From positions 62,001 to 126,000 of the forward strand of contig JAKVCA010000020.1 in NCBI GenBank assembly GCA_022448315.1: a stretch of 64,000 bases of DNA, read 5' to 3'. Positions 29,888 to 38,324 of the stretch are shown piece after piece (positions within the stretch are counted from its first letter, which is position 1; each line of letters opens with the position of its first letter). The notes beneath the pieces were generated by a model that was not told the origin of the DNA, made no database searches, and worked only from the letters and a program-made list of their open reading frames with translations. The position numbers and the translations under genes are program-made. Source of the stretch: Pirellulaceae bacterium. GTDB lineage: Bacteria; Planctomycetota; Planctomycetia; Pirellulales; Pirellulaceae.

Positions 29888-31240
29888 ATGTGGAATCGTC
29901 TGATCGTCACGAGTTGCTCCTTTTTCATGTTGCTCACCCCCGTCGCATGGGGACAATCCCCGCCAAGTGGTGAGCAACTTTCGCCCGTGGTGGTCTATCC
30001 GGTCGTCGAGTTCCAGCAGCCTCTTGGAAAGTCGTTCTACGGAACGACCGAACCCATTCGGCGAACTTCGATTGGCAGCGCGGTGGAAGGGCGAATCGAG
30101 TCCGTTTACTTCGAGGAAGGGGAAGAGTTGACGCACACCGCCAACGCGGCAGATTCAAGCCAAACGTCGGAGGAAAACGGTTTTGATCTCGTGAAACTAA
30201 AGACCGAGACGATCACGCAGGAACTCCTGGCGGCTCAAGCCGAATTGCAGTACCGAAAACTCGCCCACGAGGAATTGCTTCTTTCGATCGATTTGGAAAT
30301 CACCCATGCCGAACAAAGTCGGTTGGCGGCAGAGCAGGCCCAGCAACTTGCGGAGAAGAAGTTTGGTAGGGCACAGTCGCTGTTCGAGCGACAAAATGGC
30401 GTTACCAAAGACGAATTTGATGAAGCGGAATCCGCTCGAGCCATTGCCATCGCAACGGTGCTGCAGGCCCAAGCGACAAGCAAGCGTCTGAAAGACACCA
30501 AACAGGTTCGACTCGCGCAAGCCAAGGCCCAGGTGGAGATCCAAGAAGCGGTCGTTCAGCGACTGGAGGATCAGTTGCGGAAACATACCATCCGCAGTCC
30601 CTTTGAAGGCTACGTGGTCAGTCAGAAAGCGGACGTTGGAGATTGGGTAAGCCGTGGTGATGTGGTGGCAGAAGTCATCCAAATTGATCCGATTCAGTTA
30701 CGCGTTTTTGTCCCTGAATCCGATCTCTATAGTTTGAAGGTTGCCTTAAAATTAGCCCCGGAAGAGAAACTGGACGTCTGGGTCCGTTTCGATGCCATCA
30801 AAGACCAGCGATTCAATGGCCGTGTTGAACGCATCATCCCCCAGGCCGATGTGCGATCAAGAACGTTCCCGATATTGATCCGCGTTGATAATCCCAAAGA
30901 TTCTCGACTTGGAAGGCGACTAGGGTCCGGCATGTTGGCGGAAGTGGCGTTGCCGATTGGCACGGCACAAAAACGCCTCCTCGTTCCTAAAGATGCGATC
31001 AACCTGGAAGATGAATCGGCGTCGGTGATTGCTGCACGGTCCAACGGCGAATCTTTTGGCTACCGCGCCGAAAAAATTCCCGTCAGGCTAGGGCTCTCCA
31101 TGGGGAATTTTGTCGCGGTCACCGGTGAATTGAGTGTCACGGATCGGGTCGTCGTGGAAGGCAACGAACGCATCCGTGCCGGTCAGATTCTCGACGTCGT
31201 TTCGGAAGGAGAGTATGACCTGCCCGGAACCGTCCCCTAA
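29888..31240 (+). CDS. RND efflux periplasmic adaptor subunit (MFP/HlyD family)
   Basis: A 450-residue periplasmic adaptor that links an inner-membrane RND pump to an outer-membrane channel. The signal peptide ends near 'PVAWGQ'. Then a split biotinyl/lipoyl half ('GSAVEGRIESVYFEEGEELT'), a coiled-coil hairpin (about 95-220, 'AQAELQYRKLAHEELL', 'DEAESARAIAIATVLQAQATSKRL'), the second lipoyl half ('IRSPFEGYVVSQKADVGDWVSRGDVV') and a beta-barrel ('RFNGRVERIIPQADVRSRTFPILIRV'). No lipobox cysteine is present at the signal end. Start ATG 29888. The permease follows 62 bp later. Confidence 0.93.
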   Translation: MWNRLIVTSCSFFMLLTPVAWGQSPPSGEQLSPVVVYPVVEFQQPLGKSFYGTTEPIRRTSIGSAVEGRIESVYFEEGEELTHTANAADSSQTSEENGFDLVKLKTETITQELLAAQAELQYRKLAHEELLLSIDLEITHAEQSRLAAEQAQQLAEKKFGRAQSLFERQNGVTKDEFDEAESARAIAIATVLQAQATSKRLKDTKQVRLAQAKAQVEIQEAVVQRLEDQLRKHTIRSPFEGYVVSQKADVGDWVSRGDVVAEVIQIDPIQLRVFVPESDLYSLKVALKLAPEEKLDVWVRFDAIKDQRFNGRVERIIPQADVRSRTFPILIRVDNPKDSRLGRRLGSGMLAEVALPIGTAQKRLLVPKDAINLEDESASVIAARSNGESFGYRAEKIPVRLGLSMGNFVAVTGELSVTDRVVVEGNERIRAGQILDVVSEGEYDLPGTVP

Positions 31241-31302
31241 ACCCCAAGGTCATTCTTTTTCCTCACCGAACCCACTTGCATCCCCTAGTCTTGCGAACGT
31301 CC

Positions 31303-34300
31303 ATGCACCCGATTCAATCATTCATTGCGCATCCGGTCAAAGTCTCGGTGTGCGTTCTCCTGGTTTCACTATTTGGCGGGCTTTCGATCCTGCGAATGCC
31401 CATGCAGTTGACCCCAGAAGTTGAACGTCCCACCATCTCCATACGCACCAACTGGCCGGGCCGAAGTCCTCAGGAAGTTGAAAAAGAAATTGTTCAGAAG
31501 CAAGAAGAGCAACTGCAAAGTGTCGAAGGCGTCGTCAAGCTAAGTTCCGAAAGCTCCAACTCAAGAGGGCAGGTCCGGCTGGAGTTTAATGTTGGAACTG
31601 ACATGCAAGAGGCGATCCTGAAGGTCAACAGTCGCCTCCAGCAGGTCGGTGACTACCCCGTCGATGCCGATGAACCGATCATCAGCACGTCCAATTCGGC
31701 CGATTCACCGGTCGCGTGGGTGATCCTCAGCGCTCGACCTGCATCCCGGGAGAAGATCTCCGGGTTCCAACAAAAGTATCCGGAACATCGTGAGGGCCTC
31801 GAACAGGTCCTGACTGCCCAGAGTCCGGGGCTCGCCATGTTGAGAATTCGTCAGCTCGCCAAACTTCACCCTGAACTGGAGCCTCTTCTACCGGCGGACA
31901 TCGACATCCCGACCCTTCGAAAGTTTGCGAAGGACCAGATCGCGTCTCGCTTCGAGCGGGTGGACGGGGTTTCCGCGGTGGATTTATATGGTGGAAGGGA
32001 GCCAGAATTACAGGTCATTGTTGACCCCCAGAAACTCGCGGCGCGGGGCCTGACATTGACCGATGTCAGAGATCGCCTGCGGAGCCAGAATGTTGACACG
32101 TCGGGCGGGGACCTTTGGGAACTCAAACGCCGATACGTCGTGCGAACTCTCGGACAATACAACTCCCCTACCGATGTTGAGCAGGTCGTCTTGGCCATCC
32201 CAAACGGCCAACCCGTTTTGGTGAAAGATGTCGCCACGGTCCGGCTGGACTATCGGAAGCCCGAAGGCTACGTCCGTCGATTCGGTACCAACAACCTGTC
32301 GGTAGGCATCCGAAGAGAAGGGGGGGCAAACGTTCTTGAGGTGATGGAAGGGGTCAGAAGAGTCACGGCCCAACTGAATGAAGGTGTCTTGAAAAATGAA
32401 AATCTGACCCTCACCCAAGTTTACGACGAGACGGTCTACATTCAATCGTCCATGAAACTGGTCAACCAGAACATCATCTTGGGAAGTGCTCTGACCGTCA
32501 TCATCCTCGTTTTGTTTTTACATCTGGATGCTCGGACGATCTTGCTCGTCCCGTTGCTGTCAGGCTCCGCCCTGGTCGCTCTCTTGGTATCGCCCTGGTT
32601 TTTTCTGGTCACCTTGCTCCTGATTTTCATCGCAGGTTTTTGGTATGCCCGAGGCGCTCTGGTCGTGTCGCTGGCAATCCCCATCAGCATCGTGGGAACG
32701 TTTTTGATTCTGAATAGCCTTGGACGATCCCTCAACGTGATCAGCTTGGCGGGACTGGCTTTCGCGGTTGGCATGCTTGTGGATAACGCGGTCGTCGTTC
32801 TTGAAAACATTTACCGGTACTACCAACGGGGTTACCGCCCCGCGGAAGCGGCATTGAAAGGGACGAAGGAAGTTTGGGGAGCAGTGCTGGCCTCAACATT
32901 AACGACCCTGTTTGTTTTTGTTCCCGTGCTATTTCTTCAAGGTGAGGTCGGTCAACTGTTCGCGGATATCGCTTTGGCCATCAGCAGTGCTGTGGCTCTA
33001 TCTCTTTTGGTAAGCGTGATCGTGATCCCAATGGCCTCTGCGAAAATCCTCGGGCAATCCCACTCGGAGGAACCCACTTCGGTTCAAACCACTTCGTTGA
33101 CACTGAAAGGCTCGGCCCTCGCGTCTTCGGTGGCAAGCGGCGTCTTGGCCATCAACCGATTCGCGCAAACTTCACCGCTCCGGCAACTCGGGATTGTGAT
33201 CGTGTTGACCCTCATCGCGACGGTTGGAAGTTATTTCCTGTTTCCTGCGGTTGAGTATCTCCCGACAGGCAATCGAAACATGGTGCGATGCGCGATTTCG
33301 CCTCCTCCGGGTTACAACCTGGACAAAATGCTCGACATGGGCGCATTTATCGAAGAGGAACTTCAACCTTATTGGGACGTTCAACCGGGGCAAACTGAGC
33401 ACGACGGCGCTCCGACGATCAAAGATTTTTTTTACGTCGCCTACGGAAACGGCATGTTCATGGGTCTTCAAGCAAGCGACCCACTGCAAGCGCGAAGTCT
33501 TGTGGAACTGATTCGGTCAAGGCTGAGTAACAAGTTTCCCGGATCTTTCGTATTCGTCTCTCAATCCAGCCTTTTCGAACGACGTGGTTCTGGCGGGAGG
33601 ACCATTGAAATTGAAATCAGCGGCCCCGAACTCAGAACATTGATCGACCTGGGCCGACGAATTATGGGCGATATGAAAGCGGCGGCTTCGGAAGAAGCAG
33701 ATTCTCCGGTCGCCCAAGTCGGCAAAAGGTCGCCGTTGCTACCCGAATCGACACAAATGCGACCGGAACCCAGTCTGGATTTGAATACCCCTGAGCTTCA
33801 CGTGGTCGCCAAGCCAATCCCGGCAAGCGAAGTTGGCATCAGTAACGAAGAACTTGGCTACGCGATCAACACCATTGTTGACGGTGCGTACGTGACAGAC
33901 TATTTCCTCGGTGGCGACAAAATCGACCTCGTCCTCTGGGGCAGTGAAGAACTTCTCTCGAATTCGATGGCCGAAAAAAGTGGTTACACGGGCCAAACCC
34001 AAGATCTTGAATCAAAGTACATCGCAACCCGAAATTCAGAATTTCCCGTGCGTTTGAGCAGCATTGCGAACATCGACCTCGGGGCAGGTCCTCAGCAGAT
34101 TAATCATCGGGAACGGCAGAGGTCCATTTCAATCACCGTCACGCCTCCGCCAGAATTGCCCCTCGAGACCGCGATCAACGTCATTCAAACGGAAGTCTTG
34201 GCCCCGCTCAGTAAAGATCCTAGATACTCCAACGATTACACGTTTAACTTAAGTGGCACGGCCAACAAACTTCGAGACACCTGGCTTGAATTGCGTTGGA

Positions 34301-34896
34301 ATGTCCTCATCGCACTGCTGGTCACGTACCTGCTGATGGCGGCGCTTTTTGAATCCTGGGTTTATCCTCTGGTCATCATTTTCAGTGTACCGCTGGGTGC
34401 CGTTGGTGGTCTTCTGGGCCTGCAGCTTCTATCGGTCTATCTGAGCTGGCAGGGTGCCCCCCCCCAGCCCCTGGACGTGTTGACCATGCTTGGATTTGTG
34501 ATTCTGATTGGAACAGTCGTCAACAATGCCATTTTGATTGTCCATCAAACGCTTAACCTGATTCGCGATGATCACCTGGAGCCTCATGATGCTGTCCTCG
34601 AAAGTGTCCGAACACGCGTTCGACCGATTTGCATGACCACTGCAACCACGGTGTGCGGCCTTGCTCCATTGGTCTTTTTTCCTGGGGCTGGCAGCGAACT
34701 TTACCGCGGTATCGGTGCCGTGGTGCTTGGAGGACTGGTTGTATCAACCATTTTCACACTCGTGTTGGTACCCAACCTTTTTACGCTCGTCATGCGTTTG
34801 CGACAACGATTTGGGAATATTACCAAACCGATCATCCAGTCCACGTCCACCATGGACTCAGGGCAGGACGCAAAAAAGATTGGCGGAAAAATTTAG
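31303..34896 (+). CDS. RND-family efflux permease (AcrB-like, with extra hydrophobic insert)
   Basis: A 1197-residue inner-membrane proton-driven pump, longer than AcrB (1049). ATG 31303 is preferred to an in-frame TTG at 31276. The first helix is 'PVKVSVCVLLVSLFGGLSI'; 'MPMQLTPEVERPTISI' and the porter subdomains follow. The proton-relay helix reads 'GMLVDNAVVVLENIY', so only one of the two AcrB aspartates is present (D494). Between 'LFLHLDART' and 'RGALVVSLAIPISIVGT' there is an added hydrophobic stretch (about 411-450), and another insert of about 45 residues lies in the first porter domain (about 150-200). The substrate is unknown. Co-transcribed with the adaptor; no outer-membrane channel gene is adjacent. 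Confidence 0.9.
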   Translation: MHPIQSFIAHPVKVSVCVLLVSLFGGLSILRMPMQLTPEVERPTISIRTNWPGRSPQEVEKEIVQKQEEQLQSVEGVVKLSSESSNSRGQVRLEFNVGTDMQEAILKVNSRLQQVGDYPVDADEPIISTSNSADSPVAWVILSARPASREKISGFQQKYPEHREGLEQVLTAQSPGLAMLRIRQLAKLHPELEPLLPADIDIPTLRKFAKDQIASRFERVDGVSAVDLYGGREPELQVIVDPQKLAARGLTLTDVRDRLRSQNVDTSGGDLWELKRRYVVRTLGQYNSPTDVEQVVLAIPNGQPVLVKDVATVRLDYRKPEGYVRRFGTNNLSVGIRREGGANVLEVMEGVRRVTAQLNEGVLKNENLTLTQVYDETVYIQSSMKLVNQNIILGSALTVIILVLFLHLDARTILLVPLLSGSALVALLVSPWFFLVTLLLIFIAGFWYARGALVVSLAIPISIVGTFLILNSLGRSLNVISLAGLAFAVGMLVDNAVVVLENIYRYYQRGYRPAEAALKGTKEVWGAVLASTLTTLFVFVPVLFLQGEVGQLFADIALAISSAVALSLLVSVIVIPMASAKILGQSHSEEPTSVQTTSLTLKGSALASSVASGVLAINRFAQTSPLRQLGIVIVLTLIATVGSYFLFPAVEYLPTGNRNMVRCAISPPPGYNLDKMLDMGAFIEEELQPYWDVQPGQTEHDGAPTIKDFFYVAYGNGMFMGLQASDPLQARSLVELIRSRLSNKFPGSFVFVSQSSLFERRGSGGRTIEIEISGPELRTLIDLGRRIMGDMKAAASEEADSPVAQVGKRSPLLPESTQMRPEPSLDLNTPELHVVAKPIPASEVGISNEELGYAINTIVDGAYVTDYFLGGDKIDLVLWGSEELLSNSMAEKSGYTGQTQDLESKYIATRNSEFPVRLSSIANIDLGAGPQQINHRERQRSISITVTPPPELPLETAINVIQTEVLAPLSKDPRYSNDYTFNLSGTANKLRDTWLELRWNVLIALLVTYLLMAALFESWVYPLVIIFSVPLGAVGGLLGLQLLSVYLSWQGAPPQPLDVLTMLGFVILIGTVVNNAILIVHQTLNLIRDDHLEPHDAVLESVRTRVRPICMTTATTVCGLAPLVFFPGAGSELYRGIGAVVLGGLVVSTIFTLVLVPNLFTLVMRLRQRFGNITKPIIQSTSTMDSGQDAKKIGGKI

Positions 34897-34985: not shown

Positions 34986-37900
34986 CTAACGACCGCCTCG
35001 ACCTCCTGGGCCACCGGAGCTTCCGCCTCGGCCTCCCGGTCCACCAGTGCTTCCGCCTCGGCCTCCGGATTGCGGCGTGCTACCGCGAGAGCCAAAGCCG
35101 CCTTGCATGGCTCGCTGTTGGAACCACTGCTGAATCGCCTGTCGACGAGCATCGTCTGATGCACTCGAGGAGCTTCCTCCTGTCGACGGACGACTCGGAC
35201 TTGATGGGCTGCTGCTGTTGCTGGTGGGCTCGGCGGAAAATGCGGCTTCGAGCCCAGCTCGTAGCAGTTCCGGATTGATCTTTCCGCCGATCGGAATGAC
35301 TTGGATAAACTGCTTCTCTTGGAGTTCAGGAAGGTCGAGTTGCTGGACAATCTCGATCACTTTGTCTTGCAAATAAGCGGGCCCTGTCAGCACCAGCGAA
35401 TTGGTGTTCGCCTCCACTGAAACTGCGAGTTTCACAGGTTCGATGTCGGCACCACCACCTCCGCCGCCCCCGCGTCCACCGCGACCATTTCGTCCCATCA
35501 GGGCCTCGATAATCTTCTGCTGTGCCTGCGCCTGAGCATTCTGACCGCCACCACCACCTTGGTTGTTACTTCCTTTGATAAAATCGGCAAGTTGCTCCTT
35601 CACAATCGTCGCGACTTGACTTGCATCCTGATAACGAATTGGAACCACCTTGGTCGTTCCTTCAAGTTCGGGAGGTACGGGCGGCTCCTCTTGGTCGATG
35701 AACTCCAACAATTCTTCAATCAGTCCCAAATCTTCTTCGTTTGCCTGAACAACCAGTGCATTAAGTTTCGGGTCTGCGACCATTCCCACATCACCGGTGG
35801 TTTCAAGAAACATGCCGGAGCTTCCGCCCCCCATCATGGAACCGCCACCACCCAGCATGCCGCCAACGATATCGCCAGCAGCGCCGCCGATCATGTTTCC
35901 GGCCAGGCCACCGAGCATCCCAAGTCCGCCACCACCGCCGGAACTTGAACTGCTGAGTCCAAGCATTTCACCGAGCAGGTCTTGAGCCTCCTGAGCACCA
36001 CGATTTCTAAGATAGAAAACGGTAGGAATGGGAATGCCAGATTCGAGTCCCACGGTATCTCGGATCAAATCCTCCAAGGCATCCAACGCATCGAGATCAT
36101 CACTTCGGATGATCAGACCGTAAGGGGTTTTTTCGACGAAGACGTCGGGATTATCCTCTCCGATTTGCTGCGTGGCAGAAGCCTGCTTCGTCGCAAGTTC
36201 GCTGGATACCCGCGTAAATTTCCATGAGGGCTTTTCGATGGATGCTGACGGGTCTCCGGCAGTATCAGGTTTCTCAGGAGCCGGCTCGATTTCCGGTTTC
36301 AGTTCGGGCGTCTCTAGATAACCCTCAGGGATATCTCGTTGTCGAATTCGCGGATTATCTTCACCAACCACCTTGAATTGCAACCGGTTGGACCTTTCGG
36401 TAGTTTGCCACAACGTTTCAATCCGTCGCATGGCCTGACTTGCTTCGTCCCCGGTGATGGGAATCAAACGGGCAGAAGATCGCTCCGCGCCTTCCGTGCT
36501 CCGAGGCGGATCAATCCCCTCGACGAACCGAGTGATTTCTTCAACCTGAGCTTTCGTGCCTCGGATCAAGAGACGATTTCGGAGTGGGTCAACCACGACT
36601 TTCGCAAGGTATTCGGTTGAATCGTCCTCAAGCAGCGGATCCGCAATCAATCCAGCGGAAACTAGAATTTCAGTCACCCCCTCCGGATCATAATCGCGGA
36701 GATCAACTACACCAAAGTCGACCGAATTGCCTTGAAGTTGCTCAATCGTCTCCTCGGCACGCAAGTGGTCAGATTCGCGTCCGTAGAGCACCACAGAGCG
36801 GGTTTCCGGTGCAACCTCAACTCGAATGTCGGGGTGCAAGTTAGCAAGTAGCGTCTGCAAGACTTTGAGAACCATTTCCGGGTTGGCACGGACACTATAG
36901 GCCCGCAAACTGAACTCATCTTCATCGATGGTCAGATCACCTGAGGGCTGCCGGTCTGCTTCGCCGAGTAATTGCAACAACTGCTCCACGCGATCCTCTT
37001 CGCCCCGGTAAAACAACCGCATTCCTAAAGAGTCGGGTTGAACCCAAATGGTCTCATCATCATCACTCGAGTCATCATCATCAATGTTGAAGAGCGAGCG
37101 TACCAGCAGCATGGCTTCCTCAGTGGTGATGTACTGCAGATCCAACGTTTGGACCGGTCGCTTTTGAGCTTCTGCCCGCTTTTCTGCATCTTCAACGATC
37201 GCTCGAATGGATCGAAGGTTCCCCACGGTCTCTCGAATCACCAGCTGATTGGAGAGCGGGATCGAAACCGTGCTGCCGTAATTCTCATTCACAAGATCGC
37301 TGATTTCAGGCTCCAGATCACCCGCACGGGCGAATTCCAGCGAAAAGACACAGCTGACAATTTCGTATCGCCCTCGCTTGTCCAACTCTTGCGGTTCCAC
37401 GACGGGAATCAATTGCTCTGGAATTTCTTCGAGATCAACGACCATCAACTGTTGGTCGTTTCGCACCAGCGTGACGCCCTTGAGCATCAAGACGTTGTTC
37501 AATAGATCGATGGATTCCGCAACCGTGTATTCTCGTTTGTCCTTATAGCTGAAGGTTCCATCAGGGAGTGGCGTCTCCAGTTGTAACGACAATTCCGCCT
37601 GCTCCGCAAACCACTCAATCAAAGGTTCCCAGTCCATTTGGCCGAAAGAGAACGTGATCTTGATCGAATCGGCTTCGGCCACCGCTTTGGGAGTGTCGTC
37701 TGCAGGTGCGGCAGCCACCTCAGCTTCGACCGCAATTTTAGGCATTTCCCCCGCGACCTCCAACGTCATGACACGCCAGGCAGCGAGTTGAGTCGGCTGG
37801 AAAATCCGCTTGATCATCAACTCATATTTTCCGTTGATGGCATCCTCGTTGACGTCCGAGTCAGCATCAAATTCGGCTTGTCGCTTGTCTAGGAGTTCGA

Positions 37901-38324
37901 CGATTTCTTTTTTCTGTTTCTCCGATAACTGCAGAGCCGCCGTCACGGAATCGATTCGCAAGGCAGGAAAGCCGGCGGATGCCTCGTAAACGAGCTCAAC
38001 CAGTTCCTGCTGACGAGGATCCAGCACCCCTTGAAGCTGGCTTTCCGACTCGTCGATAAATGCGAGTCCAGCCACTTTCCCAGCATCAGTCTCCAAATCC
38101 GCTTCAGCCAGGAAATTCGCCGCCTGCTCCAAACGGGCATCAACCCACTCGGTGGTCTTCGCCTGCTGATCTTCATCGAGTTTCAGCAGCGTTGCGGCAT
38201 TGGGATGCTGCATTAAGGCCCCACTACCAAGAAGGTCGGCGGCTTCCTGCCCCCAAGCAAAGTTGGAAAAACAACCGGTTAAAGTCGTGAGCAGAACGAC
38301 CAAATGACATGATGTCGATTTCAT
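34986..38324 (-). CDS. Secreted Spy-like/secretin N-domain protein without a barrel
   Basis: A 1112-residue exported protein (signal peptide 1-25). Residues 45-190 hold repeated LTxxQ-like helices ('LLKLDEDQQ', 'VLDPRQQELV', 'LQLSEKQKKEI', 'IFQPTQLAAW'), as in the periplasmic chaperone Spy/CpxP. Residues about 220-300 resemble a secretin N0/STN domain. From 320 to 1000 there are at least six NolW-type secretin N modules, each with a 'VDPLRNRLLIRGT'-like strand-turn ('ADPKLNALVVQAN', 'VEANTNSLVLTGP'). Two glycine-rich inserts (793-838, 922-958) and a Gly/Ser-rich tail (1040-1112) interrupt and end it. The secretin C-terminal barrel is absent, so it cannot form a GspD-type pore alone. The function is unknown, perhaps an envelope scaffold. 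Monocistronic with its own terminator. Confidence 0.8.
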   Translation of the reverse strand: MKSTSCHLVVLLTTLTGCFSNFAWGQEAADLLGSGALMQHPNAATLLKLDEDQQAKTTEWVDARLEQAANFLAEADLETDAGKVAGLAFIDESESQLQGVLDPRQQELVELVYEASAGFPALRIDSVTAALQLSEKQKKEIVELLDKRQAEFDADSDVNEDAINGKYELMIKRIFQPTQLAAWRVMTLEVAGEMPKIAVEAEVAAAPADDTPKAVAEADSIKITFSFGQMDWEPLIEWFAEQAELSLQLETPLPDGTFSYKDKREYTVAESIDLLNNVLMLKGVTLVRNDQQLMVVDLEEIPEQLIPVVEPQELDKRGRYEIVSCVFSLEFARAGDLEPEISDLVNENYGSTVSIPLSNQLVIRETVGNLRSIRAIVEDAEKRAEAQKRPVQTLDLQYITTEEAMLLVRSLFNIDDDDSSDDDETIWVQPDSLGMRLFYRGEEDRVEQLLQLLGEADRQPSGDLTIDEDEFSLRAYSVRANPEMVLKVLQTLLANLHPDIRVEVAPETRSVVLYGRESDHLRAEETIEQLQGNSVDFGVVDLRDYDPEGVTEILVSAGLIADPLLEDDSTEYLAKVVVDPLRNRLLIRGTKAQVEEITRFVEGIDPPRSTEGAERSSARLIPITGDEASQAMRRIETLWQTTERSNRLQFKVVGEDNPRIRQRDIPEGYLETPELKPEIEPAPEKPDTAGDPSASIEKPSWKFTRVSSELATKQASATQQIGEDNPDVFVEKTPYGLIIRSDDLDALDALEDLIRDTVGLESGIPIPTVFYLRNRGAQEAQDLLGEMLGLSSSSSGGGGGLGMLGGLAGNMIGGAAGDIVGGMLGGGGSMMGGGSSGMFLETTGDVGMVADPKLNALVVQANEEDLGLIEELLEFIDQEEPPVPPELEGTTKVVPIRYQDASQVATIVKEQLADFIKGSNNQGGGGGQNAQAQAQQKIIEALMGRNGRGGRGGGGGGGADIEPVKLAVSVEANTNSLVLTGPAYLQDKVIEIVQQLDLPELQEKQFIQVIPIGGKINPELLRAGLEAAFSAEPTSNSSSPSSPSRPSTGGSSSSASDDARRQAIQQWFQQRAMQGGFGSRGSTPQSGGRGGSTGGPGGRGGSSGGPGGRGGR

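Follow-up and report, generated by a model that had tools for sequence, protein, structure and literature searches.

A barrel-less secretin N-module protein of Pirellulales as the probable inner partner of a type II secretion channel

In enterotoxigenic Escherichia coli, GspD, the secretin of the type II secretion system (T2SS), uses its N0 domain to bind the HR domain of the inner-membrane protein GspC (PMC3169554). The secretin of the rhizobial type III secretion system (T3SS) is split into two separately encoded genes, with RhcC1 (NolW) as the N-terminal part and RhcC2 as the C-terminal part (PMC3574062, PMC3973906), and PilQ of Thermus carries six N-rings in a complex 350 Å long that spans most of a wide periplasm (PMC5745081). 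Secretins have a family mean of 555 residues (PMC4827864). Here we describe a gene of a Pirellulaceae bacterium (assembly GCA_022448315.1), found in a 64,000-nucleotide stretch of contig JAKVCA010000020.1 (positions 62,001 to 126,000), which we call the window. The gene occupies 34986-38324 on the minus strand (window coordinates), starts with ATG and is an intact frame of 1112 residues with no internal stop. Its product is a secretin N-module protein with a GspD-type N0 domain and without a channel domain, and we consider it probable that it is the inner, N0-bearing and barrel-less partner of an outer-membrane secretin in T2SS-B, one of two T2SS found in Pirellulales.

How this protein compares with the described systems depends on the feature considered. 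It shares with GspD, PulD and XcpQ the folds of N0 and the N-modules (Z 11.1 on 4jtm and 13.8 on 6hcg) as well as, in related genomes, a position in T2SS clusters, but it lacks the channel domain PF00263, has seven N-modules and a Spy-like front, and is encoded apart from the barrel protein. With RhcC1/RhcC2 it would have in common a two-gene secretin whose N-terminal and C-terminal parts are apart; the rhizobial pair, however, belongs to a T3SS, whereas the genes linked to the window family in its relatives are those of a T2SS, and here both chains have many modules and a giant version exists in addition. The extended N-ring stack predicted for the window protein and its partner recalls that of Thermus PilQ, which differs in being a single chain of 757 residues with a barrel that serves a type IV pilus and DNA uptake. 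A literature search, outside which most subscription papers fell, returned no description of a two-chain T2SS secretin or of secretins of 3500-5000 residues, and the passages of PMC8567305 and PMC3422733 that mention planctomycete pilins and secretins do not speak of a two-chain secretin.

The domain architecture was read from the open reading frame, Pfam and an AlphaFold2 model built from 49 sequences (the window protein and 48 relatives from a named sequence collection; mean pLDDT 75, pTM 0.35). By eye, residues 1-25 look like a signal peptide (38250-38324; this and all following features of the gene are on the minus strand), with LTGC at residues 15-18 as an alternative reading as a lipobox. 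A predicted helical bundle (residues 33-186 in the model) makes up the Spy-like front at residues 26-204 (37713-38249; pLDDT 95.8), followed by N0 at residues 218-300 (37425-37673), in which residues 223-300 are modelled with the β-α-β-β-α-β-β topology of N0 and residues 218-298 superpose on the N0 of E. coli GspD (4jtm) with Z 11.1 and rmsd 2.4 Å over 80 aligned residues. Seven modelled β-α-β-β-α modules come next: module 1 at residues 319-388 (37161-37370; 322-387 in the model; XcpQ 143-207, Z 10.4, rmsd 2.3, 65 aligned), module 2 at 392-456 (36957-37151), module 3 at 472-531 (36732-36911; PilQ, Z 9.1, rmsd 1.7, 59 aligned), module 4 at 535-604 (36513-36722; InvG, Z 7.5, rmsd 1.5, 58 aligned), module 5 at 618-763 (36036-36473), module 6 at 767-876 (35697-36026) and module 7 at 890-996 (35337-35657). 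Modules 5 to 7 are interrupted by inserts of low model confidence: one at 656-723, a Gly-rich one at about 790-845 (792-838 in the model) and a Gly/Gln-rich one at about 912-965 (919-962 in the model), the last at a site where a profile alignment places a Gly-containing loop in Vibrio cholerae GspD. The family consensus and the model suggest, at low confidence, a possible half module at residues 1005-1029 (35238-35312), and a segment that resembles it by eye ends the protein's 2427-residue paralogue described below. Where the secretin barrel would be expected there is a disordered tail rich in Gly, Ser and Arg (residues 1030-1112, 34989-35237), which the model also renders at low confidence from about residue 1030.

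Homology searches point the same way. Pfam finds six Secretin_N (PF03958) stretches (whole-protein E-value 6.6e-37), and the NCBIfam model type_II_gspD matches with an E-value of 4.7e-31 and 108 bits, below its cut-off of 351. The count of modules is thus seven by the model, six by Pfam and five by our own profile. The PF00263 barrel was absent from the window protein among Pfam matches up to an E-value of 1, in a PF00263 search of its own genome and in the model. The best PDB match of the model is PulD (6hcg; residues 224-533 on PulD 27-339, Z 13.8), with an rmsd of 10.5 Å over several domains which is so large that the relative placement of domains in the model is not to be trusted. An earlier note on this DNA, made from the letters alone, had described an N0-like domain, six or more NolW-like modules, glycine-rich inserts and a Gly/Ser-rich tail in a secretin N-module protein without a channel domain, and this description was borne out. 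Neither a C-terminal secretin domain nor unrelated folds, which the note had named as outcomes that would tell against it, came out of Pfam, the model or the PDB comparison.

The front of the protein calls for a more guarded description. The LTxxQ-type label given earlier applies loosely, to one strict L[ST]xxQ motif (LSEKQ at 133) and the degenerate copies LDEDQ (49), LDPRQ (101) and FQPTQ, picked out by eye, and the Pfam LTXXQ model has no match to the whole protein up to an E-value of 1; on the other hand, the top four PDB matches of a family profile of the front are all Spy (E-values 5e-4 to 0.007). The front is also homologous to separate SpyL genes that adjoin gspE in some relatives (hhalign 99.1%, E-value 1e-18). 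With the front alone, Foldseek listed nothing at an E-value of 0.001 or better and a VIA fold search gave a best Z of 7.5 (5io8), within that tool's stated background; Spy was missing from both lists, although the front may still have a Spy fold. By profile the front is Spy-like: it shares with the periplasmic chaperone Spy a helical build, LxxxQ-like motifs and best profile matches, but it differs in having no Pfam LTXXQ match, no significant fold match and a fusion to secretin modules.

The genomic company of the family points to a T2SS. Secretin_N occurs in four frames of its own genome, two with a barrel (1249 and 1315 residues) and two without (1112 and 2427 residues). The former, the 1249-residue GspD on contig C37 and the 1315-residue GspD2 on contig C83, combine Secretin_N with PF00263 and supply the partner barrel proteins elsewhere in the genome that the earlier note had proposed to look for as support for a split secretin; both (loci L039 and L041) have no N0 by profile and a first module at residue 47. 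The 2427-residue barrel-less protein on C37 has 14 Pfam Secretin_N stretches (24 modules by our own profile) and a match to GspD-N0 below the cut-off. Its gene heads T2SS-A, in which gspE-F-G-H-I-J-K-L-M-D follow on the same strand after 303 bases. A second cluster, T2SS-B on contig C50, runs from gspE to a GspM-like gene, with gspG uncalled by the gene finder. Pfam supports E, F, H, J and K of T2SS-B and G of T2SS-A, with weak or no support for L and M of T2SS-B. In a GspF tree, rooted by midpoint only, the T2SS-A and T2SS-B of Pirellulales are sister groups (99/97), and the GspF of T2SS-B groups with clusters that carry window-type genes.

A division of N0 and barrel between two proteins recurs within the order. 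The N0, N-module and barrel profiles used here were built from the same loci on which they were run, with a lax module threshold. Removal of near-identical sequences left 155 rows (124 with N0 only, 24 with barrel only, seven with both), which include frames cut by locus ends (e.g., L328/L329, L333, L319, L322, L096), and 128 complete proteins with at least four N-module matches were used. Among these, 100 have N0 only, 22 barrel only and six both; all 22 barrel-only proteins come from Pirellulales and all six with both from outside it (the single-chain giants L330-L332 and the GspDs L321, L324 and L326 of f21, another order of the window's class), so no complete Pirellulales protein in this set bears both. 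Sixteen of the 22 barrel-only GspDs have a first N-module that starts at residue 29-74, which leaves no room for an N0. This pattern suggests a division of labour between long Pirellulales GspDs and barrel-less partners.

The numbers of the two kinds of protein match as well. In 12 genomes, picked for contiguity among 51 positives, the number of GspDs with 7-9 modules relative to that of close partners (window type and giant) is 1:1 in nine and 2:2 in three, at a partner cut-off of E below 1e-50 that was set after the table had been seen and that falls in a gap from 9e-54 to 2e-46. The other long secretins of these genomes (1115-1416 residues, one in each) have no N-module matches, and in the nine relatives that lack the window family no secretin frame holds more than two Secretin_N. 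Sixteen frames of further secretins were examined, including L359 from the window's own genome and leaving out short ones of about 500-750 residues: L213 has one module match, L214 none and 13 further frames none to four.

Linkage to T2SS genes is a further line of evidence. The window protein is matched in 51 of 60 relatives, and the window-type protein is on that account beyond chance. Of 134 candidate stretches in the named collection, 123 code for relatives, and the 80 best were retained. L220, with a 73%-identical match, has no intact long frame in the gene calls and was left out. Of these best 80, 78 are named as planctomycetes, one as an unnamed bacterium (L252) and one as Candidatus Nealsonbacteria (L259), whose Pirellulales-type gene probably lies on a mis-binned contig. 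Across 40 loci chosen among relatives, a window-type gene often stands ahead of gspE-gspF-gspG, and in genomes G001 and G002 the order, pieced from two loci each, is window-type gene, E, F, G, H, I, J, K, L, M, barrel-bearing GspD and next gene (gspI is uncalled in G001, where a SpyL gene precedes gspE). Among 125 different proteins with N0 and no barrel, 28 have gspE on their own strand less than 4 kb downstream; gspE at this distance is found for none downstream on the opposite strand, none upstream on the same strand and three upstream on the opposite strand; probabilities for this linkage are only indicative, as all genomes share ancestry. Given the observed division of domains, the number match, the gspE linkage and the cluster shared by relatives, we regard the window protein as a probable T2SS component.

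Barrel-less partners and long N-stacks extend beyond Pirellulales, and the absence of N0 from long GspDs goes, in this sample, with Pirellulales. An N0-N1 model finds some match, many of them weak, in 72 of 195 genomes across the phylum. In f21, the T2SS operon begins with the gene of a barrel-less protein and its GspD has a divergent N0, and outside the class, L334 encodes a 2095-residue barrel-less giant upstream of gspE. Distant planctomycete families have single-chain secretins with a C-terminal barrel, 36-52 N-module matches and an N0 by our own profile (Pfam finds no N0 in the single-chain giants or f21 GspD scanned): L330 (2890-17889, minus strand) has 4999 residues and about 49 modules plus barrel, L331 (247-10974, minus strand) 3575 residues and 35 Secretin_N stretches plus PF00263, and L332 (125-14617, minus strand) 4830 residues and 44 Pfam Secretin_N stretches plus PF00263, or 52 modules by our own profile. 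These giants reach about 50 modules and 4999 residues, about nine times the 555-residue family mean. In L331, L332 and L333 (truncated where its locus ends) the giant gene comes after GspK and its neighbours, where gspD usually stands. One more single-chain giant can be read over the two overlapping loci L328/L329, and L092 (9037-19901, plus strand) and L286 have 46-47 N-module matches in more than 3600 residues, with no barrel in the part seen before the locus or contig ends. In a tree of N0-N1, whose base is unresolved and whose bootstrap had not settled, the giants form one clade (100/100), the EF-hand-linked type forms another (100/100) and gspE linkage is scattered.

Taken as the inner partner of a T2SS secretin, the window protein would enter the periplasm and use N0 to seat a stack of N-rings on the inner-membrane platform; the rings of GspD would carry the tube on to the outer-membrane barrel, so that both proteins, as we infer, join into one extra-long channel. 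By analogy with E. coli, binding of N0 to GspC would make the N0 chain the inner part and the barrel chain the outer part. Speculatively, the Spy-like front might sit at the inner mouth, perhaps acting as a holdase for exoproteins. From the length of Thermus PilQ we put a ring at about 4 nm, allowing about 10 nm for the barrel part; on that estimate, the seven modules with N0 and the 8-9 of GspD2 would come to some 75 nm, and the pair with the 2427-residue protein well over 100 nm. The ordinary periplasm is narrower than these lengths. Perhaps some modules form no separate ring; the planctomycete periplasm, for its part, is variable and can be greatly enlarged (PMC5394234).

Several observations weigh against this assignment, the great length that a straight stack would have among them. 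The window gene stands apart from T2SS genes, beside a sulfatase and an RND efflux pair; the T2SS-B cluster and GspD2 are on two other contigs. As all three lie inside long contigs, contig ends do not explain their separation. GspC (PF11356) is unmatched in the genome, which leaves the docking partner unproven. By eye, the GspM-like protein seemed to end in a GspC/PilP-like HR domain, but no significant match to GspC or PilP resulted, and this domain is likewise unproven: profile searches returned mainly cadherin/Ig for the whole protein and designed Ig-like proteins and other unrelated chains for the HR stretch. For 97 of the 125 barrel-less proteins, no gspE stands on the same strand within 4 kb, in some cases through contig ends. 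In six of the 22 barrel-only GspDs the first module starts at 98-196, perhaps from wrong starts, and the absence of N0 there is a matter of the profile alone. Genomes G011 and G035 each hold a shorter secretin (845 residues, L358, and 899 residues, L357) with four weak N-module matches, a barrel and neither N0 nor a barrel-less partner, and counting these two shifts the ratios there to 3:2 and 2:1. Many genomes have further N0 paralogues of 900-1100 residues in numbers unmatched to GspD. Finally, the f21 GspD keeps its own N0, so that the barrel-less partner supplies no missing N0 there, and a simple history in which GspD was cut in two is rejected as the full story because f21 GspDs retain N0.

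The alternative that deserves most attention, though we hold it to be rather unlikely, is an accessory T2SS ring or scaffold: a duplicated barrel-less GspD that surrounds, tethers or assembles GspD, as GspB does, outside the channel wall. The f21 pair, both with N0 and N-modules, is what one would expect of an added ring, the long disordered inserts and tail of the window protein would suit such a role, and anchoring of a secretin by GspB is known (PMC9239104); yet all 22 complete long Pirellulales GspDs are without N0, which suggests a division of labour, and the numbers match in the 12 genomes. We consider it improbable that the protein is a scaffold or adhesin made of secretin modules that stands by itself in the periplasm or at the surface and has nothing to do with secretion, a reading close to the adhesive scaffold first proposed. 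The unlinked window gene and one subtype with an extracellular-looking EF-hand/P-domain neighbour speak for it, but the N0 is of GspD type, Pfam finds no adhesin domain, gspE linkage stands up to orientation controls and the family co-occurs with long GspDs and goes with the T2SS; modules that were merely borrowed are probably the wrong picture for what looks like a T2SS component. Decay of a GspD that lost its barrel, with the gene on its way out, would account for the half module and low-complexity tail at the expected barrel site and is nonetheless very improbable in view of 100 complete barrel-less frames from many genera with conserved positions and of the single, fully supported clade of giants.

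A number of neighbouring genes and variants were noted along the way. In the window, the RND efflux pair (HlyD-type and AcrB-type; 29888-34896, plus strand) is convergent with the gene, 89 bases from its end, and is kept only by the nearest relative (G017) among compared loci. Of the 125 barrel-less loci, 13 (L073, L074, L075, L076, L080, L081, L084, L244, L248, L252, L275, L297 and L298) have a divergent gene for a DUF1570 (metallopeptidase-like) protein no more than 1.5 kb upstream, and a subtype of 879-994 residues (L103-L108, L111) adjoins a gene cluster in which the member scanned combines EF-hands with a proprotein-convertase P-domain. Next to long GspDs, a family without significant Pfam match (L039 4482-5510 and L041 7314-8270, both minus strand) has a profile match in 20 of 21 long-GspD loci and adjoins GspD where seen; its start is lipoprotein-like by eye, making it a candidate pilotin. 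A cadherin/Ig-like insert is present in GspM-like proteins from clusters of the T2SS-B type (L129 14547-15878, minus strand; L199, L128 and L127).

Our results also allow a bolder reading, which we think improbable: giant trans-periplasmic tubes, with up to about 50 N-rings where one chain builds them and from about 16 to over 30 where two do, would measure tens to possibly more than 100 nm, tie the inner membrane to the outer one and form the core of crateriform structures. In Planctopirus these structures touch the cell membrane and bear pili-like fibres (PMC5394234), and we found no protein named for them. The same source describes the inner membrane as kept close to the wall at crateriform structures, which speaks against a very long straight tube there. 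If true, our reading would provide concrete genes for enzyme export by planctomycetes across a variable and sometimes enlarged periplasm, and a molecular candidate for structures that link both planctomycete membranes.

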